Of a stretch of DNA of 64,000 nucleotides, positions 1-18,898 are shown in pieces. This DNA comes from Streptomyces sp. AM 2-1-1 (GTDB taxonomy: Bacteria; Actinomycetota; Actinomycetes; Streptomycetales; Streptomycetaceae). The position numbers were made by a program, and so were the translations under genes. Position 1 is the first letter of the stretch, and each line of letters opens with the position of its first letter. The DNA lies in assembly GCF_029167645.1 (NCBI RefSeq), contig NZ_CP119147.1, positions 3,348,001 through 3,412,000 on the forward strand, in the 5' to 3' direction. Below the pieces are notes generated by a model that saw only the letters and a program-made list of their open reading frames with translations, had not been told where the DNA came from and searched no databases.

Positions 1-797
1 AAGCGGGTGGCCATCTCGCGGTAGGACAGGGCGGGCGTCTCGCTGTGACGGATGCGGTCCACCAGATCGTCCAGGGCCTCATCCGTGAGCGCGGTACCGG
101 ACTCCAGCGCGAACGCGGAGACCGGCTCGGTGGGGCCCCAGACGGGGAGTTCCCATCGGGATGTGACGCCGGGCGTGACGCGGGTGGTCACGCTGGTCAG
201 GGCCCGTCCGGTGCCCTCCCCCTCCCGTGTCGTCTCCAGCGTCGACCAGGCGCGGGAGAGGGTGTCGGCAGTGCGGGCCTGGACGTGTGCGACGCGGGCT
301 CCGGCCTGCGTTACGGCCGTCAGCCGCGTCTCCTCCGTGGACGCTTCCGCCCGGAGGCGGGCGCGTGCAACGGCTGCTTCGTCGCGGGCTTCCTGCTGGA
401 TGCCCTGGATCGCGTCGAGGGCTTCCGCGGTGAGCGCGGTGCGCTCCCACATGCCGTGGACCAACCACAGGGCTTTGGCGGCGATGGGGAGCCAGGCGAC
501 CGCGAGCCACGCGCCGGCCGAGTGCTCCGCGGTCAGGGCGTGGGCGATCAGGACGCCGGTGGCGACCGCGCCGAATCCCCAGCCGACGCCGGTGACCGTG
601 GTGCTGTGGTCGCCCTGAGCGGCCAGGCGGCGTTCGTAGGCGAGCGTGGCGAGCCACCCGCCGTCGATGCCCAAACCGACGACCAGCGCGACCGGCCACG
701 GCATCGCCGTGCCCAGCCACATCATCACCACGGCCAGCGTGAGAACCATGGACACCGCCGTCATAGCGACAGCGGGAAGAACTGTCTTGACGTTCAC
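1..797 (-). CDS. SpdB-like transfer-associated membrane protein (3' end cut by window edge)
   Basis: The reading frame is open from a GTG at 797 to the left edge (265 codons). Translation begins MNVKTVLPAVAMTAV and has three to four hydrophobic segments in the first 115 residues, then a charged, probably coiled-coil stretch rich in Ala, Glu and Arg. The last visible residues (ALSYREMATRF) look like the start of a helix-turn-helix. Proteins of this build lie in the spread (spd) operons of Streptomyces plasmids and AICEs, where Spd proteins help plasmid movement between hyphal compartments. The GTG overlaps the stop of the upstream 110-aa gene by 4 bases, so the two are probably translationally coupled. 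The SpdB name rests on architecture and context only. Confidence 0.6.
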   Translation of the reverse strand, partial: MNVKTVLPAVAMTAVSMVLTLAVVMMWLGTAMPWPVALVVGLGIDGGWLATLAYERRLAAQGDHSTTVTGVGWGFGAVATGVLIAHALTAEHSAGAWLAVAWLPIAAKALWLVHGMWERTALTAEALDAIQGIQQEARDEAAVARARLRAEASTEETRLTAVTQAGARVAHVQARTADTLSRAWSTLETTREGEGTGRALTSVTTRVTPGVTSRWELPVWGPTEPVSAFALESGTALTDEALDDLVDRIRHSETPALSYREMATR

Positions 798-1126
798 GCC
801 GCTTCACCCCCGCGCGTCTCGTCGGCGGTGGGGACGTCCGCGAAGCCGGTCAGGTGCACCTCGGCACCGCCGTATTCGGTGTGGACCTTCAGCACGGCGG
901 TCCGGCCGCCGGACTGAACGCCGTAGGAGACGCCCGCCGGGTCGATGCCCAGCGCGTCCCGCCACGCCTCGAACCCGGCGAAGTCGTCGTGGAACGTCAG
1001 CTCCAACCGGTCGGGGAACCAGGTGGACAGCGCCACGTCCGGGGCCGGGAGCTCCGCGTGTTCCACGGCGAGCAGCCGCAGCAGCCGCAGCGGGGCGGCA
1101 AAGTCGGTGAGCGTCTGCGCCGTCAC
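794..1126 (-). CDS. Conserved AICE protein of unknown function, 110 aa
   Basis: This small soluble protein begins MTAQTLTDFAAPLRLLRLLA and has no membrane segment. It has GTGA-type 4-base overlaps on both sides: its GTG overlaps the stop of the DUF6284 gene, and its stop overlaps the start of the SpdB-like gene. The three form one translationally coupled unit. I recognise no catalytic motif. The pattern of alternating short strands and helices (LELTFHDDF, TAVLKVHTEY, AEVHLTGF) suggests a compact alpha/beta fold. It probably acts with the spd genes, but no function can be read from the sequence. Confidence 0.7.
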   Translation of the reverse strand: MTAQTLTDFAAPLRLLRLLAVEHAELPAPDVALSTWFPDRLELTFHDDFAGFEAWRDALGIDPAGVSYGVQSGGRTAVLKVHTEYGGAEVHLTGFADVPTADETRGGEAA

Positions 1127-1389
1127 GCGGCACCACCCGACTGCACCGTGCCGGTGCGGTTGGTCAGGTCGCGGCGGGCGGCCAGCACCCGGCGCCGGGC
1201 CCGGCGGACCCGCCGGGCGTCCAGCTCGCTGACCGGCCGGTCGATGGTCACGATCTCCGCGTCCAACAGGTCAATCTCCGCCCGGATGAGCGGCATCTCC
1301 CAGTCGATCGCGTCCAGCTCCGCCGGCGTCGGCTCGAAATCGAGCGACGCCGCCGTAACGAGGCTGTGAAGTGCTCCGATGGTCTTCAT
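1123..1389 (-). CDS. DUF6284 family protein, 88 aa
   Basis: The ATG at 1389 was chosen over an upstream extension because GGAG precedes it at good spacing and the protein then starts MKTIGALHSLVTAASLDFEP, the usual beginning for the family. The centre (PTPAELDAIDWEMPLI, then LLDAEIVTIDRPVSELDARR) and the Arg-rich helix RRARRRVLAARRDL match the DUF6284 pattern found in Streptomyces integrative elements. The function of the family is not known; the basic helix could contact nucleic acid. The stop overlaps the next gene's GTG by 4 bases, making this the first gene of a three-gene coupled unit. A strong hairpin lies 36 bases upstream of the start. Confidence 0.8.
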   Translation of the reverse strand: MKTIGALHSLVTAASLDFEPTPAELDAIDWEMPLIRAEIDLLDAEIVTIDRPVSELDARRVRRARRRVLAARRDLTNRTGTVQSGGAA

Positions 1390-1424
1390 GGGTCGTTTTC
1401 TCCTTGCAGTGGAACGGCCCACCA

Positions 1425-1458
1425 GAACGGCCCCCGGGGTGCATCCCGGGGGCCGTTC
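1425..1458 (-). terminator. GC-rich hairpin, terminator or attenuator upstream of DUF6284 gene
   Basis: Perfect 14-bp arms (1425-1438 and 1445-1458) enclose a 6-base loop. It lies between the 52-aa gene and the DUF6284 gene and has no T-run on the minus-strand side, so it may work as a transcriptional attenuator or RNA-end stabiliser inside the operon rather than a full terminator. Confidence 0.6.
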
Positions 1459-1483
1459 GCTTCCTGTGGGGCCACCTCGTACG

Positions 1484-1527
1484 GGTGGCAGTGCCCCAGG
1501 CTGAATTCGATCCGGCGCCCTCACGGC
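1484..1527 (-). repeat. Intercistronic repeat, copy A
   Basis: This copy aligns to 1744-1788 with 35 identities over 44 columns plus one gap. It starts 24 bases after the stop of the 52-aa gene in the minus-strand sense. Both copies occupy the same place, just past a stop codon in the same transcription unit. Confidence 0.6.
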
Positions 1528-1550
1528 GTGATCCGGGGCGGTGACGCGAG

Positions 1551-1709
1551 CTAGCGGGTGCTGCGACTGCCGTGGCTTCCGTGGCAGCCGTAGGTGGCGT
1601 CCTGGTAGTCCGTGGGCCCGTTGGCGGCCTTCCATGCGGCCTGGGCCGCGTCGTCCTCGGCCGCAGCCTCGGCGGCGAGTTGGGCGCGAAGGTCCTCGTT
1701 ACTCTGCAC
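1551..1709 (-). CDS. Small acidic AICE protein, 52 aa
   Basis: A GTG at 1709 preceded by AGAGGAA opens a 52-codon frame ending in TAG. The product starts MQSNEDLRAQLAAEAAAEDD, is Ala-rich and acidic in its first half, and ends with a short Cys-His-Ser-Arg tail (YGCHGSHGSRSTR). It sits between the Nudix gene and the DUF6284 gene in the same orientation, each separated by a copy of an intercistronic repeat. No family is recognised; the ribosome site, the codon usage and the position in a compact operon support that it is real. Confidence 0.6.
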   Translation of the reverse strand: MQSNEDLRAQLAAEAAAEDDAAQAAWKAANGPTDYQDATYGCHGSHGSRSTR

Positions 1710-1743
1710 AGCGATTCCTCTCGTCTGACCGCCCGCCGCTGGG

Positions 1744-1788
1744 GGTGGCTCGTGCCCCGGGCCCGAGTCGATCGGGCACCCTCGCGGC
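1744..1788 (-). repeat. Intercistronic repeat, copy B
   Basis: This is the second copy of the element described at 1484-1527. It begins 21 bases after the Nudix stop in the minus-strand sense and is followed by the ribosome site of the 52-aa gene. Its ends can partly pair (GTGCCC with GGGCAC), so a weak stem-loop is possible. Confidence 0.6.
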
Positions 1789-1808
1789 TAGATACCGGGG
1801 CTGGTGGA

Positions 1809-2231
1809 TCAGACGGTCGACGCCGTGACGGCGGCGATGATGTCGGCGTGGTCGAACGCCAGCGGCGGCAGGTCGGTGAGCGGCCACCACCGGACGTTGA
1901 CCGCGTCGTCCCCGGCCTCGGCGGGCAGGCCGGAGATGACGGTCAGGTGATAGGCGACGGTGACGTACCGGCCGCGGGGGTCGCGGTCGGGGGCGTCCCA
2001 GGTCCCGACCTGGGTCAGTTCCTCCGGCGCCGCGTACACACCGGCTTCCTCGGCCAGCTCGCGGGCGGCGGCGGCGCGGCTGGTCTCGCCGGGGTCGACG
2101 TGCCCGCCGGGCAGCGCCCACTGGCCGGCGTGCGGGTCCCAGCCCCGCTCGATCAGCAGGACGCGCCTGTCGGTCGTGGTGACGACCACGTCGGCGGTGT
2201 AGCGGATGGTCTCGAACGTCTCGGTGCTCAT
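1809..2231 (-). CDS. Nudix hydrolase, Pif-like (AICE immunity factor candidate)
   Basis: Translation from the ATG at 2231 (GGGAG upstream) gives 140 aa. A complete Nudix box runs at residues 43-65: GHVDPGE, seven residues, then REL-AEE-AGV, which carries the Mg2+-binding glutamates. Nudix enzymes cleave nucleoside diphosphates linked to other groups. In pSAM2 the pif gene, next to korSA, encodes a Nudix-signature protein that blocks redundant transfer into cells already carrying the element. The same pairing is seen here: this gene is divergent from a KorSA-like GntR gene across a palindromic operator region. I infer Pif function from family and position; a general MutT-like housekeeping role is the alternative. 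Confidence 0.75.
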   Translation of the reverse strand: MSTETFETIRYTADVVVTTTDRRVLLIERGWDPHAGQWALPGGHVDPGETSRAAAARELAEEAGVYAAPEELTQVGTWDAPDRDPRGRYVTVAYHLTVISGLPAEAGDDAVNVRWWPLTDLPPLAFDHADIIAAVTASTV

Positions 2232-2511
2232 GTCGCTCCCTCGAATGCGGTTCCGGATAGTCCGGCTCCCCTCTGCCCCGCCCGTACGGCACCCCGAGGG
2301 GGCCGGACGGGCGGGGGAGGCAACCGGCCGCAGTGCCAACTGCGGAGGTGGATGCGCCATGTCTCTGCCTGGCGCTGAGCAGGGCAGCTCACTGCGGGTG
2401 GCACCCGAGGGTGTTCTCCAGGGCCGCAGGACCGTACGCACGACGCCGACGCGCCGTACCGCTACCGACGGCTCACCCGGCCGTCTCGGGGGCAAGGTCT
2501 CTCACCTCGCC

Positions 2512-2540
2512 TTTGTTCACTGTTCAGTTCTCAAGGAACC
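2512..2540 (-). promoter_or_regulatory. rRNA boxA-like sequence in the Nudix/spd leader
   Basis: Read on the minus strand this is GGTTCCTTGAGAACTGAACA followed by GTGAACAAA. It closely resembles the boxA antitermination region of Streptomyces rRNA leaders and spacers (TTTGAGAACT...CAG). It lies about 280 bases upstream of the Nudix start and would be transcribed in its leader. Function is inferred from resemblance only. Confidence 0.4.
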
Positions 2541-2621
2541 ACCGCTTCCTTCGGGCTCACTCCCTCGCGGGACCCTCCGGGCTTAGGTCGAAGCAGCCCA
2601 AGGAAGGGCTTTCCGCTCACG

Positions 2622-2697
2622 CTGTCCTAGGACTGCGGTGCGTCTGAGATGACAATGACGCACAGTCCCAGGACTGTCAACAGTCCTGGGACTGTGT
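2622..2697. promoter_or_regulatory. Palindromic operators of the KorSA-like GntR repressor
   Basis: Two 16-bp sites, ACAGTCCCAGGACTGT (2662-2677) and ACAGTCCTGGGACTGT (2680-2695), are exact reverse complements and together make a 36-bp palindrome. A third related core, GTCCTAGGAC, lies at 2624-2633. The cluster sits immediately upstream of the GntR gene and between it and the divergent Nudix operon. Paired inverted repeats next to the gene are typical of autoregulated GntR repressors. Confidence 0.75.
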
Positions 2698-2725
2698 TTC
2701 ACTGAAGCTGTTGAGAGGAGCGCGC

Positions 2726-3514
2726 GTGGCACCCAAGTGGCGCGAGCTGGCGGACAAGCTGGCCGAGCAGATCAAGAGCGGTGAGCTGCCCCCCGGCAGG
2801 CAGTTGCCGCACATTCGAGACCTGGTGGAAGCCGGTGAGGGATCGAAGTCCACGGTTCACGCGGCATATAAGGCGCTTGAAGCTGAAGGGCTGGTGACGT
2901 CCTCGCGCGGTCACGGCACGGTGGTCAAGCAGCAGGCGCCGCTTAAGCGGCTTGGTATCGCTCGCTACGACAAGGCCAAGTGGCGGGACGGCGACGAAGT
3001 CGCCTTCATCGCCGACCGGGTCGCTTCCGGACGCGCGCACAAGCGCGGTGAGCAGACGCAAAACGTCAGCCTCGTGCCGGCGCCGCCTCTGGTGGCCGCA
3101 GCCCACGGTTTGGCCGAGGGTGCAGAGGTGTATGCACGTGCTCGCCTCGTGAAGGAGGGACATCAGCCGACACATACCCTGACCAGCTATTACCGCCCGG
3201 AGCATGTCGAGGGCACCCGTCTTGTGGACCCGACGCCCGGCCCCGCGGGCAAGGGCGGAGGCTATCGCGTGCTGTACGACGCGGGGTACGAGATCGACCA
3301 CATGCGGGAGGAACTGTTCGCGCGCCCCGCATCCTCCGAAGAGGCAGTGCTACTTCAGCTGACGCCCGGAGAGTGGGTCGTAGAACTTCACCGCACTACC
3401 CGCACCGCTGATGGCACCGTGGTGGAGTTCGCCATTGGCATCCACGCCGCCAGCCGGTTCGCGTGGGCGTACGACTTCAAGGTCCCTGATTCAGCGGAGG
3501 AAGCAACCCAGTGA
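2726..3514 (+). CDS. GntR-family repressor, KorSA-like, with UTRA-type domain
   Basis: The GTG at 2726 was chosen over a TTG at 2711 because GAGAGGAG sits just upstream of it. The 262-aa product has a GntR winged helix-turn-helix at about residues 1-68 (WRELADKLAEQIKSGELPPG, then STVHAAYKALEAEGLV and RGHGTVV). The C-terminal domain at about 85-255 has the look of a UTRA effector domain. In pSAM2, KorSA of this family represses the activator gene and holds the element integrated. The palindromic operators directly upstream support autorepression, and control of the divergent Nudix-spd operon is likely. The gene overlaps the YdcF gene by 4 bases. Confidence 0.85.
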   Translation: MAPKWRELADKLAEQIKSGELPPGRQLPHIRDLVEAGEGSKSTVHAAYKALEAEGLVTSSRGHGTVVKQQAPLKRLGIARYDKAKWRDGDEVAFIADRVASGRAHKRGEQTQNVSLVPAPPLVAAAHGLAEGAEVYARARLVKEGHQPTHTLTSYYRPEHVEGTRLVDPTPGPAGKGGGYRVLYDAGYEIDHMREELFARPASSEEAVLLQLTPGEWVVELHRTTRTADGTVVEFAIGIHAASRFAWAYDFKVPDSAEEATQ

Positions 3515-4164
3515 TCCCAGCACGAGCGTGGTCTGACGCCCAGTTGTTGTGGGACTTTCAGCAGATGCACCACGACCTGCGCCCTTGCTCGGTCGGTATC
3601 GGTCTCGGTAGCCACGACCTGGGTGTAGCGGATGTGACTGCTGACCTGTATCAGCGTGGCATGTTCCCGTTGATCGTCTTCACTGGTGCAACCAGCCGCA
3701 CTACGCGCGAGCGGATGCCGAGGGGGGAAGCTGAGCACTACCGTGAGCGGGCCATAGAGCTGGGTGTCCCCGCAGGCGCGATCCTCGTGGAGCCGGAAGC
3801 GCGCAACACGGGCGAGAACATCATCCTGTCCCGTGCCGCGCTGGCTCAGCGCGGCATTGACGTGACTTCGGTGCTGCTGGTCAGCAAGCCGTACGAGGAG
3901 CGGCGAGCGTATGCGACAGCCTGCAAGCTTTGGCCGAGAGTCGAATTCATCAGCGCATCAGCAGCGATGACGCTCGCAGAGTATGTCGACACGCTCCAGG
4001 ACCCGCGCCTCGTACTGGACATGCTCGTGGGAGCGCAGCAGCGGTTGGTCGTCTACCCGAAGCAAGGTTTCATGATTGACCAGGAAGTTCCTCGCGCAGT
4101 CGCCGCTGCATACGAGCGCCTTTGCGCGGACGGGTTCACGAGCCGTCTCGCCCCGGAGGGGTAG
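3511..4164 (+). CDS. YdcF/ElyC-type DUF218 protein, 217 aa
   Basis: The protein has the DUF218 order: GIGLGSHDLGVAD near residue 30, LIVFTGATSRTTRERMPRGE near 54-73, AEHYRERAIELGVPAGAILVE near 74-94, then EARNTGENI near 95-103, and a Rossmann-like core. Members include E. coli YdcF, SanA and ElyC; the substrate is mostly unknown, and nucleotide or envelope precursor binding has been proposed. No signal peptide or membrane segment is present, so a cytoplasmic role is likely. Its GTG overlaps the repressor stop (GTGA), so the two are co-translated. YdcF-like genes recur as cargo next to GntR genes in Streptomyces integrative elements. Confidence 0.8.
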   Translation: MIPARAWSDAQLLWDFQQMHHDLRPCSVGIGLGSHDLGVADVTADLYQRGMFPLIVFTGATSRTTRERMPRGEAEHYRERAIELGVPAGAILVEPEARNTGENIILSRAALAQRGIDVTSVLLVSKPYEERRAYATACKLWPRVEFISASAAMTLAEYVDTLQDPRLVLDMLVGAQQRLVVYPKQGFMIDQEVPRAVAAAYERLCADGFTSRLAPEG

Positions 4165-4215
4165 CACGCCCAGTCTCATTCGCAGTCAGTTGACTCGTTG
4201 TCCGTGACCGTCCAC

Positions 4216-4262
4216 CCTCATCCGCCCTGGTCGCTCAAATGCGCTGACCAGGGCGGATGAGG
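4216..4262 (+). terminator. Terminator of the gntR-ydcF operon
   Basis: Perfect 17-bp arms (4216-4232 and 4246-4262) enclose a 13-base loop, starting 52 bases after the YdcF stop. No poly-T follows, as is usual for many Streptomyces terminators. Confidence 0.75.
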
Positions 4263-4306
4263 TTACGGCGGACGACGATGGACGGCTACGGATTGAGATC
4301 CGACAA

Positions 4307-4350
4307 CTTGTAATGCGTAGGTCGTCGGTTCGCATTCGACTTGGGGCTCA
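4307..4350 (+). other. tRNA-Thr(UGU) 3' half, attachment-site scar
   Basis: From CTTGTAA (anticodon loop, anticodon TGT, 4307-4313) the sequence reads as the 3' half of a tRNA: T-arm GTCGG-TTCGCAT-TCGAC (4324-4340), acceptor strand TTGGGGC (4341-4347) and TCA. The expected 5' side of the anticodon stem is absent, so identity stops at the anticodon loop, where integrative elements usually recombine. A hairpin terminator follows at once, as at real tRNA ends. Confidence 0.6.
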
Positions 4351-4356
4351 GCGCGA

Positions 4357-4387
4357 AGCCCAGGTCAGATACGCTCTGAGCTGGGCT
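4357..4387 (+). terminator. Terminator following the tRNA-Thr fragment
   Basis: The 13-bp arms (4357-4369 and 4375-4387) have one mismatch and a 5-base loop, followed by AATTTCT. Placement directly after a tRNA 3' end suggests it is the tRNA gene's own terminator. Confidence 0.6.
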
Positions 4388-4544
4388 AATTTCTGTTCAG
4401 CGGGTGCGGCGGCGAAGCTGTGAGCCTACGAGGGCTGACCCGTTGCGATGCCTGTTCTCCCTATGTCCTCGCCTGTCCTGACCTCCCAAGACGCCCGCGC
4501 CTTTCTGTGCAAACAAGGCTAGGTATGAGAGTGGTGCCGGCTCC

Positions 4545-5441
4545 TCACTCTCCGGACTGTCGCGCATCAAGTTCCCGTTTCTTCAACTTTTCTGGTTCCT
4601 GTGAAATTTTAGCTACCACAGCTTCACTGAAGAGAAGTACGCGTTCCTGTAGATAGCGCTCCAGCGCTGGGAAGGCTACCACGTCCAGATTGAAGAGCCC
4701 TTTCATGGACCTCATGTCGACGTCTCGTTCTAGTGATACCCAATCGGTTCGCTCGGAGATAGGGGTTTCAGACTCTCCGTTGACATAGAAAAGTTCACCG
4801 CTCGTGACAACGATAGGGAAAGATAGGCACAAGTGTGCGGATTTTGGCTCCGGGTTGCGGTCTCTTTGGGGCCGGAAGGCCTCGACTGCCTTCATGAGGG
4901 GCAGAGTCAGTGACTCGAATATAGAAGAGTTATCCGCAACCCATTCCTTTCCCCTTAGGTTCATCCGGATCAGTTGAAGGCCTTTCCGAATATCAAGATT
5001 CGGACTTCCCGGCAATTCATGGAAACCCAGCCAGCCCCACGATTGCATCCCCCGCTGACGAGCTGCGCCATCTGGCAGGAATTCTAACCAGCGAATGAAT
5101 TCTACTGGCATCGTGTGCGAGTGCGGCTGGCGGTACTTATCTACAGCTTCCGGGTCTCTCCCAAGTGCAACGTAGGGTCCATCGGAACGTTTGCATTCGA
5201 TCACCAGCTGGAGGGATACGACGATGCGCTGTGCAGAGTCTTCCCACAACTTCTTTACGGCGAAAATATCGATCTCTCGTGACTTCCCCTCGTCGGGGTC
5301 CATAAAAGCTTTGCCTGTGATAGTTGTAAATCCTGCGGATCGAACTTTGCTGGCCACACGTTGCTCGAGGAGGTATCCGGTCCGCTCAAGGGCTCCGATC
5401 ACTTCGTCACTTGCAGGGGAGGGGAACGGGCGGCTGCTCAT
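4545..5441 (-). CDS. Putative PD-(D/E)XK nuclease-like protein, lone cargo gene
   Basis: The ATG at 5441 gives 298 aa; a longer frame exists to 5525 but looks less coding-like, and neither start has a good ribosome site. An N-terminal domain of about 110 residues shows the PD-(D/E)XK pattern: E26 in the first helix (LEQRVASKVR), D58 in EGKSREIDIFAV and E82-x-K84 in LVIECKRSDG. This fold is found in restriction and Mrr-like nucleases. The other 190 residues match nothing I know. Base composition is clearly less GC-rich than the neighbours, with A/T-ending codons, pointing to recent transfer. It stands alone between two tRNA-derived att scars. A defence function is plausible but not shown. Confidence 0.6.
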   Translation of the reverse strand: MSSRPFPSPASDEVIGALERTGYLLEQRVASKVRSAGFTTITGKAFMDPDEGKSREIDIFAVKKLWEDSAQRIVVSLQLVIECKRSDGPYVALGRDPEAVDKYRQPHSHTMPVEFIRWLEFLPDGAARQRGMQSWGWLGFHELPGSPNLDIRKGLQLIRMNLRGKEWVADNSSIFESLTLPLMKAVEAFRPQRDRNPEPKSAHLCLSFPIVVTSGELFYVNGESETPISERTDWVSLERDVDMRSMKGLFNLDVVAFPALERYLQERVLLFSEAVVAKISQEPEKLKKRELDARQSGE

Positions 5442-5648
5442 GCTGTACAGCCTAGTAAGAAGCCGGTGCCCAGACAGCGAAAGCGCCATAGAGAGCCTGA
5501 CCCTCACGGACCGGGCGCGCACCACCTACGCACCACCTAGGGCGGACAGCCAGGGTCAATCAAAGGGCTGCCCATAGGCTGCCCGTGTTTCCGCTAGAGG
5601 ACCGTCAGCGCAGGCCAGAGTAGGTGGTTGGAGGCTGAGGGGCGCAGA

Positions 5649-5692
5649 TTCCCAAGCTCAGAGCGCGAGTTCGATTCTCGTCACCCGCTCCA
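5649..5692 (+). other. tRNA-Gly(CCC) 3' half, element attachment site
   Basis: From TTCCCAA (anticodon loop, anticodon CCC, 5649-5655) the sequence matches the 3' half of an actinobacterial tRNA-Gly: variable region, T-arm GCGAG-TTCGATT-CTCGT and acceptor CACCCGC-T-CCA. The 5' side of the anticodon stem is missing. This is the classic scar left when an element integrates into a tRNA 3' end. Short direct repeats upstream (GGCTGCCC twice near 5566-5584) could be integrase arm sites, which is a guess. Confidence 0.8.
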
Positions 5693-5707: not shown

Positions 5708-5737
5708 AGCCCCAGGCCGATCAGCCAGGGGCTTTTT
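5708..5737 (+). terminator. Terminator following the tRNA-Gly fragment
   Basis: AGCCCCAGGC and GCCAGGGGCT pair around a 6-base loop with one internal mismatch and run into TTTTT. It is a canonical intrinsic terminator 16 bases past the tRNA 3' end. Confidence 0.85.
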
Positions 5738-6057: not shown

Positions 6058-6174
6058 GAGACGGCCTGGCTGGCTGTAGGCGCGGGCTGTCTCGACCCGC
6101 CCTCGAAAACCCCCTCGGGTGCGGCGGTCAGTCTTCGTCGCCCTCGTCCACCGGATCGGTTGTGGGGTACCCAC

Positions 6175-6428
6175 ATGCATCGTGTGAACTGGGTCCTGTC
6201 CCGGATCAAGGTGGAGCAAGTCACCGAGCAAGCCGCCGAAGCAGCGGCGGAGTTACTCAAAGTCCCTGAGCTGCACGGGCACGAGCGCGCCATCGACGCA
6301 CGGTCGCCCAGGTCGCGCGGCGTCAGCCGAAACTGATCGCTCTCCTGACGTCCGACAGCGACGACATGGCCCCGCTCGGCGGCAACCAGGTCCGCACCAT
6401 CCCTCTCCGACCCGCCCGCCAACCCTGA
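6175..6428 (+). pseudogene. PIN-domain toxin-like remnant, frameshifted
   Basis: One frame gives AAAELLKVPELHGHERAIDA, and a frame change near 6298 continues VAQVARRQPKLIALLTSDSD and DMAPLGGNQVRTIPL to a TGA at 6428. Together they match the last third of Streptomyces PIN-domain proteins, with the conserved HGH-AIDA helix and TSD-DD motif. PIN domains are Mg2+-dependent RNases, often toxins. The N-terminal catalytic half is absent and no antitoxin is present, so this is a dead fragment. Confidence 0.6.
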
Positions 6429-6553
6429 ACACGGGTGCACCCCGGCAGATTCCCGTCGCCCTGCCGGCGTTGTGTTCCATCCGTGCCCGGCGGAGAAGGC
6501 AACAACGTCCGTCGCCGTACGGGCAGGCGTTCGCGGCACGGCATCATGCAGGC

Positions 6554-6865: not shown

Positions 6866-7566
6866 GGCGGCGGGAAGCGGGGGTGCGGTCCCGCGACACG
6901 GCTGGTCCCAGCGCTGCGACGACGGCTGCGGTCGCGGGGGCCGCCGTCTCGGTGTGACGCGTCGCCGCGAACAATCGGCTCGGCCGGCCCGAGTGTCGTC
7001 CCGCTCCCGCCCCTGCGATCGCCCGGCGGCAACGTGCCGAGCAGCCCACCGACGAGCTGTCGGCGCCGTGCGGTAATCGCCTCGACGGGACGGGGGAAGT
7101 CGGCGCACTGACGGCTGGTCCATGCGGTGTACAGCCCCCCGGCCTCGCGAACCCCTGACCCGGTGGCCCGGCCGTTCGTCCCGCCCCTCCCCCGGACCGG
7201 GACGCCGTCGGGCCCTGCGGCGCGGCGCGGCTCGTCCTCGGTGCGTCCTCCGCCTGTTCCCGCTCGGTGTCCCGGAGGTAGGTCTCGGGGCGGTCGCGCG
7301 TGTAGGTCGTTCGCGTTGTATCGGGGACGTCCCGAAGGCCGAGCGGTCGCGCCGGGAACAGTCGGACCGGCCGAAACGGTTGCATCGAACGAAGGACCGG
7401 CACCCCACCGGCTGGGCACCCGGAGACCTGAGTCCCCGGGGCTTCGGCTCTGCCCGGATTCGGCCCTGCCACGAATCGGCCCTGCCAGGATTCGGTCCCC
7501 CGGGGATCACGGGGCGCCGGCCGTCTCTTCCGACCACGACGTACTTCTGCTGGAGGACTGTTTCTC
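6866..7566. other. Gene-free stretch upstream of the PIG-L gene
   Basis: Several long open frames cross this stretch on both strands, but their products are Arg/Pro/Gly-rich and match no family, as expected of random frames in GC-rich DNA. The only structure I see is a 3-copy 16-bp repeat at 7445-7492. The last 30 bases carry the ribosome site of the next gene (GGAGG). Confidence 0.6.
7445..7492. repeat. Tandem repeat, 16 bp x 3
   Basis: Three head-to-tail units close to CGGCCCTGCCAGGATT start at 7445, 7461 and 7477 and differ at two to three positions. They lie about 75 bases upstream of the PIG-L start. Confidence 0.7.
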
Positions 7567-9048: not shown

Positions 9049-9564
9049 TCAGGGGAGGGTCTTGCGCATCAGCGTGCACATGGTTTCGTACCGGCTCAGC
9101 GAGCCGTCCGCGGCCTCCACGTCCCAGCCGTCCGGCTGGCTGTCGTAGGCCACGTACCCCAGGCGTTCGTACAGTGCGCGGGCGCGGGGGTTGCTCTCCT
9201 CCACGCCGAGCTCCGCACGGCGCAGACCGCGTGACGTGATGCGGTCCTCCGCGGCGCGGACGAGCGCGGTGCCCAGGCCGCACGACTGGAGGGCCGGAAG
9301 GACCGCGAGCTGCCACAGCGTGCCGGCGCCGGGGGCGGCCTGGTAGTCGATGCCGCCGATCGCCACCGGCAGGTCCGCGGAGGCGCAGACCGCCAGGTAC
9401 TCCACTTCTCCGGCCGCCGCGCGTGCCAACTCGGCTTCCACGTGGCGCATGTGGGTCGCCGAGCCGGCCCATCCGCAGGACGGCAGATCAGCGGCTGTCA
9501 GGTCACGGACGCGGACCGGGACGACGACGTGGGGCGCCTCCCGCCGCGCGGATAAGAGACTCAT
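9049..9564 (-). CDS. GNAT-family N-acetyltransferase
   Basis: The ATG at 9564 (GGATAGGAG upstream) gives 171 aa. The GNAT core is clear: LWQLAVLPALQSCGLGTALV, carrying the acetyl-CoA-binding Q-x-x-G-L-G-T loop, then the helix RAAEDRITSRGLRRAELGV and the motif B region ESNPRARALYERLGYVAYD. The acceptor is unknown. Sequence upstream of this start stays open but lacks family similarity. It is the first gene of a likely two-gene operon with the KilB-like gene. Confidence 0.85.
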   Translation of the reverse strand: MSLLSARREAPHVVVPVRVRDLTAADLPSCGWAGSATHMRHVEAELARAAAGEVEYLAVCASADLPVAIGGIDYQAAPGAGTLWQLAVLPALQSCGLGTALVRAAEDRITSRGLRRAELGVEESNPRARALYERLGYVAYDSQPDGWDVEAADGSLSRYETMCTLMRKTLP

Positions 9565-10817: not shown

Positions 10818-11111
10818 GCCATTCCCCTTTTGATCGTGCCGTCCTGCGAATTCACGGGAATTCTATCACGGAGGCATCAACTGGCCTGCACAAAGGGGGA
10901 TTTAGCCGTGGGTGCAATGGCGAACGGACTTTCCGTCAGATGATTGCGGTCAAGGCCCCTTTTCGATACGGAAGGTATGGCCCGCTTCCTGGCGACCGGC
11001 CCGTACTGCCGGGAAATGTTTCCCGGACCGATACCGGCCCCGGTTGCCTGCCGGTGGATCGCTCCCCGGTCGGGTGTGTGCCGGATCAGCTGCCGGTCCC
11101 CGCTCCCCCGC

Positions 11112-15513: not shown

Positions 15514-16704
15514 GTGGGCAGGACGAGGTGGCTGGGGCGGTTGCGACGGAGCCGGACGGACGCGTCGGCGCTCCTCGGCATCGACGCGGACATCACCGCG
15601 TTCGGTGAGGAACTCGGCCGTCATGTACTGGCCGTGGCGGGACTCGAGCCCCAGGTGGCGGCGCTCGCGCTCCAGGACTACGAGCGCGCGCTGGAGGCGT
15701 ACGAGCGGGCGAAGCGCGAGTTCACCGGTGACCGGGACCTCGAGGACGCGGCGGACGTGATCCGCACCCTGGCGGAGGGCCGGCACGCGCTGGCGTGCGC
15801 CTCGGCACGGGCGGCGGCCCTCCCGCTGCCGGTTGGCCGACCGCCGTGCTTCTTCGATCCGCGCCATGGCCCCTCCACCACCGACGTGAGCTGGGCGCCG
15901 CCCGGGGGCGCGCCCCGGCGGGTCGCGGTGTGCGCGGCGGACGCGGTGCGCATCGGCGAAGGGGAGGCGCCGATCGCCACCGGCCGCACCCGGGAACCGG
16001 TGCCCGCGGTCCGCCCCGCGGCGGGGGGAGCCCGCGGGGGACGGGCCGCCGTGCCCCGCGATGTACGGGCCGTTGACCGGGTGGATCCACGCCCCGTACC
16101 GGGCCCGCCGCCCGCGGCCGGCCGGGGGGCGAACTGGCGGCCGTACCGGAACTGGCCTCCCGGAAACCTCCCCGGGCAACGTGCGGAGGGGGCCCGGGAC
16201 CGGATCGTCGACCTGATCCGGCCCGACGCCTCGCGACCGGTGATCCTCGTGGTCCGGCTCTCGACGAGCGGGGCGGTGCACCTCCCCTCCCGGGGCGGCC
16301 GCTCGGGTGGACGGCCGCTGCTCAAGCAGGGCGGTAGTCTGCGGCGGACCGTCGTGCCGCTCCCTCCGGACGGCGCCGGTTCGGTCCGCGTCGCGGTGCA
16401 GACGCACGGCACATGGCGCATGTGGCTCGCCCCCTTCGACGAACATGTCGCTCCGCTGGCCGACGGGTTGCACAACCGGGGTTCGTACGTCTTCCGTCAT
16501 GACGGCGGCCCGGCCACCGTCCGGGTCGACCAGCACGACGGAGGCGCCTTCTGGCTCGACGAGTTGTCGGAGGAGGGAATTCCCGGACGCCGACTGGTCA
16601 CGGGCAAGGGCTCGTTCACCGAAGAGTGCCGGCTTCACGGGCCGGGGCTCCTCCATGTCCACTCGGCCTCGGAGTGGCGGGTGCGCCTGGTCCGGTCCGA
16701 CTGA
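15514..16704 (+). CDS. Conserved actinobacterial protein with CFFDPRHG motif, 396 aa
   Basis: The GTG at 15514 was chosen for its GGAGG ribosome site; the frame stays open upstream but reads as Arg/Pro/Gly-rich noise. The N-terminal 110 residues form a helical region (LEPQVAALALQDYERALEAY, then DAADVIRTLAEGRHALACAS) followed by PPCFFDPRHGPS, a motif I know from many Streptomyces proteins without assigned function. A Pro/Arg/Gly-rich linker leads to a beta-rich C-terminal half (VILVVRLSTSGAVHLPSRGG, GTWRMWLAPF, GLLHVHSASEWRVRLV). No membrane segment or signal is seen. Function unknown. Confidence 0.7.
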   Translation: MGRTRWLGRLRRSRTDASALLGIDADITAFGEELGRHVLAVAGLEPQVAALALQDYERALEAYERAKREFTGDRDLEDAADVIRTLAEGRHALACASARAAALPLPVGRPPCFFDPRHGPSTTDVSWAPPGGAPRRVAVCAADAVRIGEGEAPIATGRTREPVPAVRPAAGGARGGRAAVPRDVRAVDRVDPRPVPGPPPAAGRGANWRPYRNWPPGNLPGQRAEGARDRIVDLIRPDASRPVILVVRLSTSGAVHLPSRGGRSGGRPLLKQGGSLRRTVVPLPPDGAGSVRVAVQTHGTWRMWLAPFDEHVAPLADGLHNRGSYVFRHDGGPATVRVDQHDGGAFWLDELSEEGIPGRRLVTGKGSFTEECRLHGPGLLHVHSASEWRVRLVRSD

Positions 16705-16798
16705 CGCCCCCCTGTGGCAGCGGGTGGGGCAGCCGGTCCGGACCACGCCGTCCTGACGTCGCGGTGCGTCGGAGCGTCAGGCGGTCACCCCGCGTCGT

Positions 16799-18898
16799 TC
16801 ACCAGGTGGACGGTGCCGGAGGTGCGACGACCGGGGGGCGGTCGTCGCAGGTGAGCGTGTTCGGGAGCTGCCAGGCGCCGAACCAGGGGCCGGTGGTGCC
16901 GCCTCCGTCGTTGCCGCCGAGATCGTCCAGCGCGAACTCCGACCCGGTGGCGGGGAAGTTGAACGCCCCGCAGTTGTTGATGCCGACCGCGCCGACGTTG
17001 CGGGCGTCCACGTTCTCGAAGGAGGCGGAGCCGGCGGCGCGGGCGCTGACCACCGAGGTGCCGGTGCCGTCGACCCGGATGTCCTTGAAGTGCACGCCGT
17101 TGATGGCGTAAAGGTCCTTCACCGGCCAGTCGGCGACCAGCATCACCGCGTTGTAGGTGCTGTCGAGATAGGTGTCGCCGGTGACCCGGACGTCCGCGTC
17201 GATGTCCCGCTCCAGCGCGTAGAACCAGAGGGCGCCGAGCCCGATGTTCCAGTTCAGCTCGTACGTACCGGCGCGGACGGTGGTGTTGCCGGTGATCCGC
17301 AGGTGTCCGGTGAAGGGCTCGGAGCCGAAGCGGGAGCCGACGTGCAGGGCGCTGCCCTCTCGGACGGGGTCGGCGACGAGGTTGTGGGAGACGGTGGTGT
17401 CGGCGCCGCCGTAGACCGCGATGCCGTTGGCGAGCACGGGCGACTGCACGGTGTTGTGGTCGACGGTGTTGCGGGCGTTGGCGCTCTTCTCCGACCACAG
17501 GGCGAGGGCGTCGTCGCCGGAGTTGCGCACGAAGTTGTTCCGTACGACCGAATCCACCACGCCGGTGTGGAAGTTGAGGCCGTCCGCGATCTGGTCGGTG
17601 ATGACGTTGCCGGTGATGCGCAGGTTCGCCATCGGGCCGTCGAACCACATGCCCACCTTGGTGTGGTGGACGTGGAGTCCTTCGATCACGGAGTCGGAGA
17701 GTGCCCCGCCGACGCCGTTCACCTGGTCGGTGTCGATGCGCTCGCGCACGTCGCCCTCGATGGTGAAGCCGGAGAGGCGGACGTTGCGGCTGCCGCCCTC
17801 GGATGCGGGTCTGCCGTAGAAGCCGACCCCGGTGTGCACGGAGCCGTCGTCGGCGGGGGTGTCCAGGGTGATCTGGCGCCCCCGGAAGACCGTGTACCAG
17901 TTCCCGGCGCCCTCGATCGTGACGTCGTCCACGACGATGTGGCGGTTCACCTGGTACGTGCCCGGCGGGACGTAGACGGTGAGGTGGGCGCGGCGGGCGA
18001 AGGCGATGGCCCGGTCGAGGGCGGCCGCCGAGTCGCGGCGCCCGGTCGGGTCGGCGCCGAAGGCGAGTACGTTCGCGGCGACGGGCACGATCCGCGGCGG
18101 TGCCACCAGTTGGGAGTCGAGGACGTCGACGGTGGTCGCCACGGCCCCGGTCCGCACGGGAACGGTCAGCCGGACGGTGTCGCCGGCCCGGTACGTACGG
18201 CCCAGCGCGAGGCGCTGTTCGTCGTAGAAGTGGCTCGGCCGGAACGGTCGGGCGATCACCGGGGCCGGGCTGGTGGCGGCGGGCACGCAGCCGCACTCGG
18301 TGATCCACCAGTCGTCGTGCAGCAGACCGGCGCCGGGGTCGTTGGAGAACGGGTACTGGTTGTACAGCCAGGAGTACCGCGACGTGAGCGTGAGCGTCTT
18401 CTTCACGGCGGGCGTACGGCCCCGGGCGCCCGCCGTCACGTCGAGCGGGGCGGTGATGCCGCCCCCGCCCGGCGCGTCGGGAATGCTGTACCGCACGGTG
18501 ATCGCGTTGGCGGCGCTCGGCAGCGTGAACTCGACGTACTGGCCCGGCTCCAGGGTCACCGCCCGCCGCCCGGACGCCTCCGCGGGGAGGGTGTACGCGT
18601 TCCGGTCGGGACCGATGACGGTGCCGTCGGTGACGGCGTTCTCCGCTTCCTGCTCGTCGAACCCGAGCTCCGCGCCCGCTCCGGCGACCAGCGCGGGATC
18701 GAGTCCGGCGCGGGTCACCACGGGGGCGGCTCCTCCCGCACCCGCGTGGGCCCCGCCGGTGAGGGCCGCGCCGGCGGTGTCCGCCCGAGCCGTGCCGCCG
18801 GCGAGTCCGAGGCAGATCCCCGCGGCGACGACCGCCGCCACGGTTCTCCGCCCCACCGTTCCCCTGCCGCTCCGTGCTGTCCGTGCCATGCGTGCCAT
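16799..18898 (-). CDS. Secreted right-handed beta-helix glycosidase, GH87/mycodextranase-like
   Basis: From ATG 18898 (a second ATG lies 9 bases in) the 699-aa product has a signal peptide (VGRRTVAAVVAAGICLGLAG, cut near TARA). Residues about 90-150 form a carbohydrate-binding-type beta-sandwich (EPGQYVEFTLPSAANAITVR). A linker with WLYNQYPFSNDPGAGLLHDD and ITECGC follows, then a pectate-lyase-like beta-helix from about 285 onward (GTYQVNRHIVVDDVTIEGAG and NVITDQIADGLNFHTG). This order matches the mycodextranase/alpha-1,3-glucanase group (GH87), which degrade fungal cell-wall or dental alpha-glucans. Substrate is inferred. Monocistronic. Confidence 0.7.
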   Translation of the reverse strand: MARMARTARSGRGTVGRRTVAAVVAAGICLGLAGGTARADTAGAALTGGAHAGAGGAAPVVTRAGLDPALVAGAGAELGFDEQEAENAVTDGTVIGPDRNAYTLPAEASGRRAVTLEPGQYVEFTLPSAANAITVRYSIPDAPGGGGITAPLDVTAGARGRTPAVKKTLTLTSRYSWLYNQYPFSNDPGAGLLHDDWWITECGCVPAATSPAPVIARPFRPSHFYDEQRLALGRTYRAGDTVRLTVPVRTGAVATTVDVLDSQLVAPPRIVPVAANVLAFGADPTGRRDSAAALDRAIAFARRAHLTVYVPPGTYQVNRHIVVDDVTIEGAGNWYTVFRGRQITLDTPADDGSVHTGVGFYGRPASEGGSRNVRLSGFTIEGDVRERIDTDQVNGVGGALSDSVIEGLHVHHTKVGMWFDGPMANLRITGNVITDQIADGLNFHTGVVDSVVRNNFVRNSGDDALALWSEKSANARNTVDHNTVQSPVLANGIAVYGGADTTVSHNLVADPVREGSALHVGSRFGSEPFTGHLRITGNTTVRAGTYELNWNIGLGALWFYALERDIDADVRVTGDTYLDSTYNAVMLVADWPVKDLYAINGVHFKDIRVDGTGTSVVSARAAGSASFENVDARNVGAVGINNCGAFNFPATGSEFALDDLGGNDGGGTTGPWFGAWQLPNTLTCDDRPPVVAPPAPSTW

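Follow-up and report, generated by a model that had tools for sequence, protein, structure and literature searches.

The AICEs of Actinobacteria, as characterized in the part of PMC3218068 considered here, possess a tyrosine integrase and an FtsK/SpoIIIE-type Tra protein, insert at tRNA 3' ends and exchange modules between elements; an element with an internal foreign tRNA half is not described in that part. In AICE family 03 of a Streptomyces rhizosphere population, the same transfer genes occur with different integrase/excisionase genes, located at tRNA-Val versus rlmN, and integrase switching has been proposed as a route to site diversity in AICEs (PMC9513070, in the sections at hand). There, the switch was inferred across elements, and the same sections describe neither a leftover att site nor an integrase stub. 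Cargo between att halves beside a mobile element is likewise known from accretion arrays (PMC9513070, PMC3146451) and cis-mobilizable elements (CIMEs; PMC3146451), the halves being of one specificity in the portions of these papers considered.

In contrast, the stretch of DNA analysed here (C1:3348001-3412000 of a 7.2-Mb genome, apparently from Streptomyces, like the named close relatives of its nuclease; 64 kb, termed the window, to which unprefixed positions refer) harbours halves of two different tRNAs, and a single element appears to carry the trace of its own former site. The ICESt1 family of Streptococcus, reportedly the subject of Burrus et al. 2002, is said to differ from this element in conjugation type and host. 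Integrase and site switching in AICEs is already published, and an attP scar within an element appears to be new; no published description of leftover attP scars was found in a search conducted mostly at the level of titles and abstracts. Very probably, one AICE-like element changed its landing site from tRNA-Thr to tRNA-Gly through recombination between a Thr and a Gly element, with loss of the Thr integrase.

The tRNA-Gly(CCC) element and its two tRNA halves

The original prediction had read positions 4307-5692 as two tRNA 3' halves of different specificity, both starting exactly at the anticodon loop on the plus strand and both followed by a hairpin, with a less GC-rich nuclease-like gene between them, and these observations are all confirmed by the following features:

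1-5692, no strand assigned: rightmost 5.7 kb of an AICE-like element of 15,262 bp at tRNA-Gly(CCC), which continues left of the window to C1:3338387
1123-1635, minus strand: DUF6284 gene, element backbone (PF19801, 8.7e-37)
1809-2495, minus strand: NUDIX-domain gene (PF00293, 4.4e-25)
2711-3514, plus strand: GntR/UTRA regulator gene (PF00392 and PF07702)
3511-4164, plus strand: DUF218 gene, the last before the presumed old attachment site (PF02698, 2e-16)
4307-4349, plus strand: tRNA-Thr(UGU) 3' half, putative scar of an attP core (4 differences in 42)
4357-4387, plus strand: terminator-like hairpin, probably of a Thr-site element left end (-21.8 kcal/mol; aligns with Thr-site left ends)
4397-4414, minus strand: probable stub of a former Thr integrase gene, comprising the stop codon and about the last 5 codons (DNA level only)
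4545-5441, minus strand: gene for a 298-aa PD-(D/E)XK-like nuclease, the single cargo gene and the one long minus-strand ORF between the halves
5649-5692, plus strand: attR, the displaced tRNA-Gly(CCC) 3' half at the element right end (first 42 nt identical to the intact gene)
5708-5733, plus strand: terminator-like hairpin just outside attR (-20.2 kcal/mol)

Overall, the Thr and Gly halves are the only tRNA halves in the whole window (33 tRNA species scanned, at most 10 mismatches in 40), and no intact tRNA was detected in these 64 kb by ARAGORN. Chance matches were rejected by means of 15 random 64-kb sequences of the window's dinucleotide content, against which 56 halves were tried: the best match to any half had at least 10 mismatches in 40 and the best match to tRNA-Thr at least 15, versus 0 (Gly) and 4 (Thr) in the window.

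The leftward search for an intact tRNA-Gly(CCC) with an adjoining integrase gene, as suggested in the original prediction, was successful 15.3 kb to the left, where an excisionase gene was found as well. The two tRNA-Gly halves form an exact 42-nt direct repeat, 15,262 bp apart, with the intact tRNA-Gly(CCC) at L034:2358-2429 (C1:3338357 on) representing the left end of the element. Located beside it are genes for a 389-aa tyrosine integrase reading toward the tRNA (PF00589, 1.1e-12), the adjoining excisionase (TIGR01764 excise, 7.2e-13, above its cut-off), and next a 490-aa Rep-like and a 709-aa Tra-like protein, both left of the genes in the window. Comparison with 13 other Gly-site integrases reveals invariant Arg, His and Tyr residues, presumably the catalytic ones, at positions fitting such a function. 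Like AICEs, the element thus combines a tyrosine integrase beside a tRNA, an excisionase gene next to int and direct repeats of the tRNA 3' end as bounds, and the Gly half is attR of one 15,262-bp AICE-like element; it can presumably still excise. With regard to the other AICE genes, Tra scores just below the Pfam FtsK cut-off (PF01580, E 5.7e-5, 23.1 bits, cut-off 24; NCBIfam plasmid_TraB, E 9.3e-4, 17.8 bits, cut-off 800) and no Rep family is recognised: the 490-aa protein has no Pfam/NCBIfam match at E <= 0.001, and its homolog in G147 has a VapE-like match only (E 0.14). A DUF6284 match is present in 43 of 45 tra709-family loci (the window's own included), and copies of the GntR/UTRA regulator with 80-91 % identity occur in Thr-, Ser-, Tyr- and Arg-site elements.

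Right of attR, clear synteny with the G082 chromosome (right of its Gly halves) begins at position 7476 (87 % over 934 nt). The sequence at 6167-6488 is similar to that flanking a Gly half on its right in two other genomes (L076 and L082) but on its left in a third (L091). The DNA between 5693 and about 7470 could therefore represent a worn slice of older date, which leaves the 42-nt repeat defining the element untouched.

The tRNA-Thr(UGU) half and its flanks

Of 42 bases in the Thr half, 38 agree with the tRNA-Thr of this genome; the other four lie in the T arm and the 3' strand of the acceptor, with the anticodon-loop part unchanged. Neither a second Thr half nor a tRNA-Thr was found within the element. 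An intact tRNA-Thr(UGU) adjoining an integrase gene had likewise been sought following the original prediction: the tRNA exists, the only intact copy found in the genome residing 618 kb off (C1:3970795-3970869) at a different island, and an integrase was not recognised there. This tRNA bears its own 12.8-kb island with a matching half (L040, G000 C1:3968500-3986000), which contains radical SAM, phosphorylase and TPR/HTH genes. The island was rejected as source of the Thr half, because its right-end sequence differs (different left flank of attR) and it lacks a recognised integrase; moreover, none of the 15 element proteins matched.

To the left, the Thr half is flanked by sequence similar to right ends of Thr-site elements from other genomes (score 50; background maximum 32), and to the right by sequence similar to their left ends (score 67; background maximum 44), the latter with a moderate margin, as right flanks of some orphan Thr halves score 53 and 50, although orphan halves in tandem arrays can likewise precede element left ends. 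The half aligns with the joined ends of six Thr-site elements, in one of which (L166) the chromosome-side flank scores above the element-side flank (23 versus 16). At the left ends of Thr-site elements, the tRNA precedes a terminator, with the Thr integrase gene adjoining by its 3' end. Correspondingly, positions 4397-4414 probably represent the last codons of a Thr integrase, judged from an 18-nt stretch with 1 mismatch to a consensus of Thr-integrase tails that was composed after viewing the window and is nearer to the tails of L175 and L178 than to others. This stretch begins 46 nt after the Thr half (41-46 nt in seven Thr-site elements), and one other match to the consensus with at most 3 mismatches occurs in the 64 kb. 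The Thr half is accordingly bordered on both sides by element-end-like sequence, resembling the right end of its own element type at left and the left end at right. In a chromosome junction, one of the two flanks would be target DNA; the Thr half is therefore most plausibly an attP-type junction within a single hybrid element, neither attL nor attR.

The DUF218 gene provides a further landmark. A survey yielded 16 such genes with at least 60 % identity in 87 loci. The distance from the DUF218 stop codon to the next tRNA half is 113, 113 and 133 bp in L170, L207 and L239, respectively (all Ser(TGA) halves), 142 bp in the window (Thr scar) and 143 bp in L215 (Ser(CGA) scar); for eight other genes the nearest half is 1.5-4.3 kb away, and for three no half was found. 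The scars of the window and L215 occupy the position of the att half in L170, L207 and L239, with DUF218 marking the old edge.

Mosaic composition and alternative readings

The integrase is 95 % identical to that of a Gly-site element in G082, 63-77 % identical to those of 12 other loci with intact tRNA-Gly(CCC) and 26-27 % identical to the integrases of three Thr-site loci; among 19 integrase loci from other genomes, 13 locate beside an intact tRNA-Gly(CCC) and 6 do not. Identity to the G082 element amounts to 89-95 % per 100 nt at L034:3001-3800 and then decreases to 80 % and 62 % up to position 4000, a drop that falls across the 5' part of xis, and identity to L190 (tra709 family, tRNA-Ser(GGA) site) increases from 71 % at L034:3901-4000 to 96 % at 4001-4100. 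Tra homologs with 68-85 % identity occur in loci at Thr, Ser, Tyr, Arg, Val, Cys and Pro tRNAs, and a search for Tra near relatives of the Gly integrase retrieved one 29 % match in 20 regions and none in 27 more. The int/xis genes and the transfer genes are thus related to elements with different sites, and the stretch shared with other-site elements, extending from Rep and Tra through to the scar, represents the main backbone. Out of 63 Tra matches, 45 loci, including that of the window, were tabulated by site, and 13 of the remaining 18 matches were scanned for halves outside this table. An intact tRNA or orphan half allowed assignment of 38 of the 45 loci to 12 tRNA species, with 7 unassigned and the window's own as sole Gly(CCC)-site locus, and this range of tRNA species therefore indicates that the tra709 family often changes site. 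The replication region is nearest to that of the Ser(GGA)-site element L190 rather than to a Thr-site element, which makes more than one exchange in the element's past likely.

Tyrosine integrases can use secondary sites. A secondary site for SGI1 is reportedly the subject of one paper (PMC2297512). A Thr integrase could accordingly have put a Thr element at a non-tRNA site of the Gly element, most of the insert being deleted later from its left end, and the foreign half of L215, which retains its left flank only, would agree with such a course. This is unlikely, since insertion would give an attR-type junction with target DNA at right, whereas the half in the window precedes Thr left-end-like sequence, and since the stretch shared with other-site elements is the main backbone and not an insert.

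The slice of 1.3 kb between both halves has a GC content of 53.6 % at 4545-5438 (72.2 % for the window). Its 298-aa protein carries invariant residues which we take to be the PD-(D/E)XK motif of nucleases; Foldseek returned no match for it at E <= 0.001. In searches of 150 and of 392 genomes of the genus, a full-length relative was found in no genome except the window's own, besides two weak partial matches. Out of 11 nuclease loci in named genomes, 2 are from Streptomyces, with no Thr or Gly half in the 20.7 kb analysed; a role of the nuclease as a cassette travelling with these att sites is not supported. In S. toyocaensis (L154), a 4.8-kb stretch contains an integrase fragment and a relative of the nuclease; it is flanked by a 97-nt duplicated sequence (L154:6154-6250 and 10945-11041), taken for the end of a glutamine synthetase gene, and harbours a 193-nt direct repeat with 97 % identity (L154:7939-8131 and 9229-9421).

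With respect to this slice, the original prediction had proposed that elements with two different tRNA targets are stacked or nested, and that the DNA in between is a separate small island or the ruin of one. The two tRNA-targeting element types have been substantiated; nesting, in which a Thr-site element would have inserted into the Gly element or next to it, with a mini-island of its own (1.3 kb) remaining between the halves, is quite unlikely. Two different halves around a GC-poor single-gene slice are what nested islands would produce, arrays with several halves of one tRNA do occur at these tRNAs, and in G082 a slice of 1.35 kb with an AbiEii-like gene lies between two Gly halves. The element contains only one Thr half, however, in the absence of a tRNA-Thr here; Thr-end-like sequence is present on both sides, where an attR would have target DNA at right; and recombination between a Thr and a Gly half is not expected of any one integrase, nor, given their different specificity (Thr at left, Gly at right), is excision of the slice, in contrast to a CIME or mini-island with both halves of one specificity. 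Located between what are taken to be a dead and a live att site, the slice amounts to a single nuclease-like gene rather than an island, and the word ruin comes near the truth insofar as it would be that of a former attP and integrase gene. The G082 slice (L074:16142-17535), enclosed by two Gly(CCC) halves, lies at the right margin of a Gly-site element and contains one gene, for the AbiEii-like nucleotidyltransferase (16627-17298; PF08843, 3.6e-15).

Use of the Thr half as a live second attP, by which a helper Thr integrase would provide the element with a second target, is very improbable: the anticodon-loop core is unchanged, all four differences lying further 3', and ARAGORN still calls a tRNA-Thr rebuilt with the scar half, but the rebuilt tRNA has two acceptor-stem mismatches, for which reason use of the old site would probably be harmful with one intact tRNA-Thr(UGU) found in the genome, and the half has drifted, whereas every paired half in the site table matches its tRNA over 40 nt with zero mismatches.

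Foreign halves in other loci and proposed history

Foreign halves were scanned for in 125 loci (2.37 Mb, 33 tRNA species; not all independent elements), among which only those showing halves of two tRNA species were examined; a reversed-sequence control gave 0 matches. Left out were five tRNA-Ala(GGC) matches with 6-9 mismatches (L078, L084, L258, L260, L273), which were absent with a smaller library (in L266, ARAGORN calls a tRNA-Ala near the same position), as well as rows due to neighbouring tRNA genes, including L247 (Ser(GCT) half itself not called a gene). After these exclusions, nine foreign halves were retained, four of which (the window's included) have matching flanks. The second is a Gly(CCC) half (C1:4800618-4800662) in an 8.3-kb tRNA-Arg(UCU) island of the same genome, with scores of 136 for the right flank (background maximum 32) and 53 versus 47 for the left (a narrow margin), and a 24-aa stub of a Gly-type integrase (75 % identity). 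In the third case, an element of G024 at Arg(ACG) contains a Ser(CGA) half with a left-flank score of 142 versus 53, the right flank being lost; in the fourth, a Gly-site array of G108 contains an Arg(CCT) half (101 versus 54 at left, 42 versus 37 at right). All four scars are in the orientation of the host element, 1.3 (window), 5.3, 1.0 and 3.3 kb inside attR; two of them have a stub of the old integrase gene, and two reside in one genome. The foreign halves Arg(ACG) of L175 and Pro(CGG) of L080 consist of the core only, with no matching flank. Three Ser(TGA) halves (L179:16730, L259:9650, L264:12895) in host islands at other tRNAs were not counted as scars, as they are in opposite orientation and have only a chromosome-type right flank, resembling that of Ser attR sites.

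The Arg(UCU) island (G000 C1:4795312-4803700; L036, L231) has an apparently truncated integrase beside the tRNA. The G108 array (C1:5246600-5306300; L252, L275, L276) comprises an intact tRNA-Gly(CCC) and three more Gly halves within about 40 kb, with a perfect Arg(CCT) half in the first unit. Orphan halves were also catalogued for the genome of the window, from 100 listed out of 106 matches; the catalogue, into whose pattern Gly-type halves do not fit and which is thus incomplete, includes an orphan tRNA-Ile half (G000 C1:3540596-3540622) with an integrase at 3540866-3541495 and the intact tRNA-Ile 56 kb off at 3596538, which probably delimit a large integrated element.

The observations comprise the two halves, the matches on either side of the Thr half, the boundary within the mosaic and the further foreign halves whose flanks match; the order of events and the route by crossover plus deletion would be as follows. 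The ancestor would have resided at tRNA-Thr(UGU), with a right end composed of GntR-DUF218 and then attP (the Thr half), followed by the terminator and the Thr integrase gene reading toward attP. Recombination of the Thr-site circle with a tRNA-Gly(CCC) element, in the simplest case through a single crossover near where the excisionase gene starts, next to the shared replication region, would have generated a composite with two integrases and two attPs; no strain with this intermediate was found. A deletion from inside the last Thr-integrase codons up to the nuclease gene could then have eliminated the Thr integrase together with its excisionase and the duplicate of the backbone. The circle would now read DUF218 - old attP(Thr) - integrase stub - nuclease - new attP(Gly) - Gly integrase - Xis - Rep ... 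Tra, with the element on tRNA-Gly and the unused Thr half drifted at four positions.

The element is ordinary as an AICE and unusual in bearing its own history: one element has two addresses, the current tRNA-Gly and a dead tRNA-Thr, apparently with the end of the old integrase. Both edges of the exchanged module are marked, one near the start of xis and the other within the last codons of the old int, and the scar suggests crossover plus deletion as a retargeting route. It also advises caution, as tRNA-half repeats in islands need not be the edges of stacked elements. Site history could be traced by a simple search for a foreign tRNA half inside an element together with matching flanks. The balance tips slightly towards foreign attP scars by attR recording retargeting generally, and in readable form, among integrative elements of Streptomyces; if so, the old attP would remain after exchange of the integrase module, and past landing sites would be readable from single genomes.
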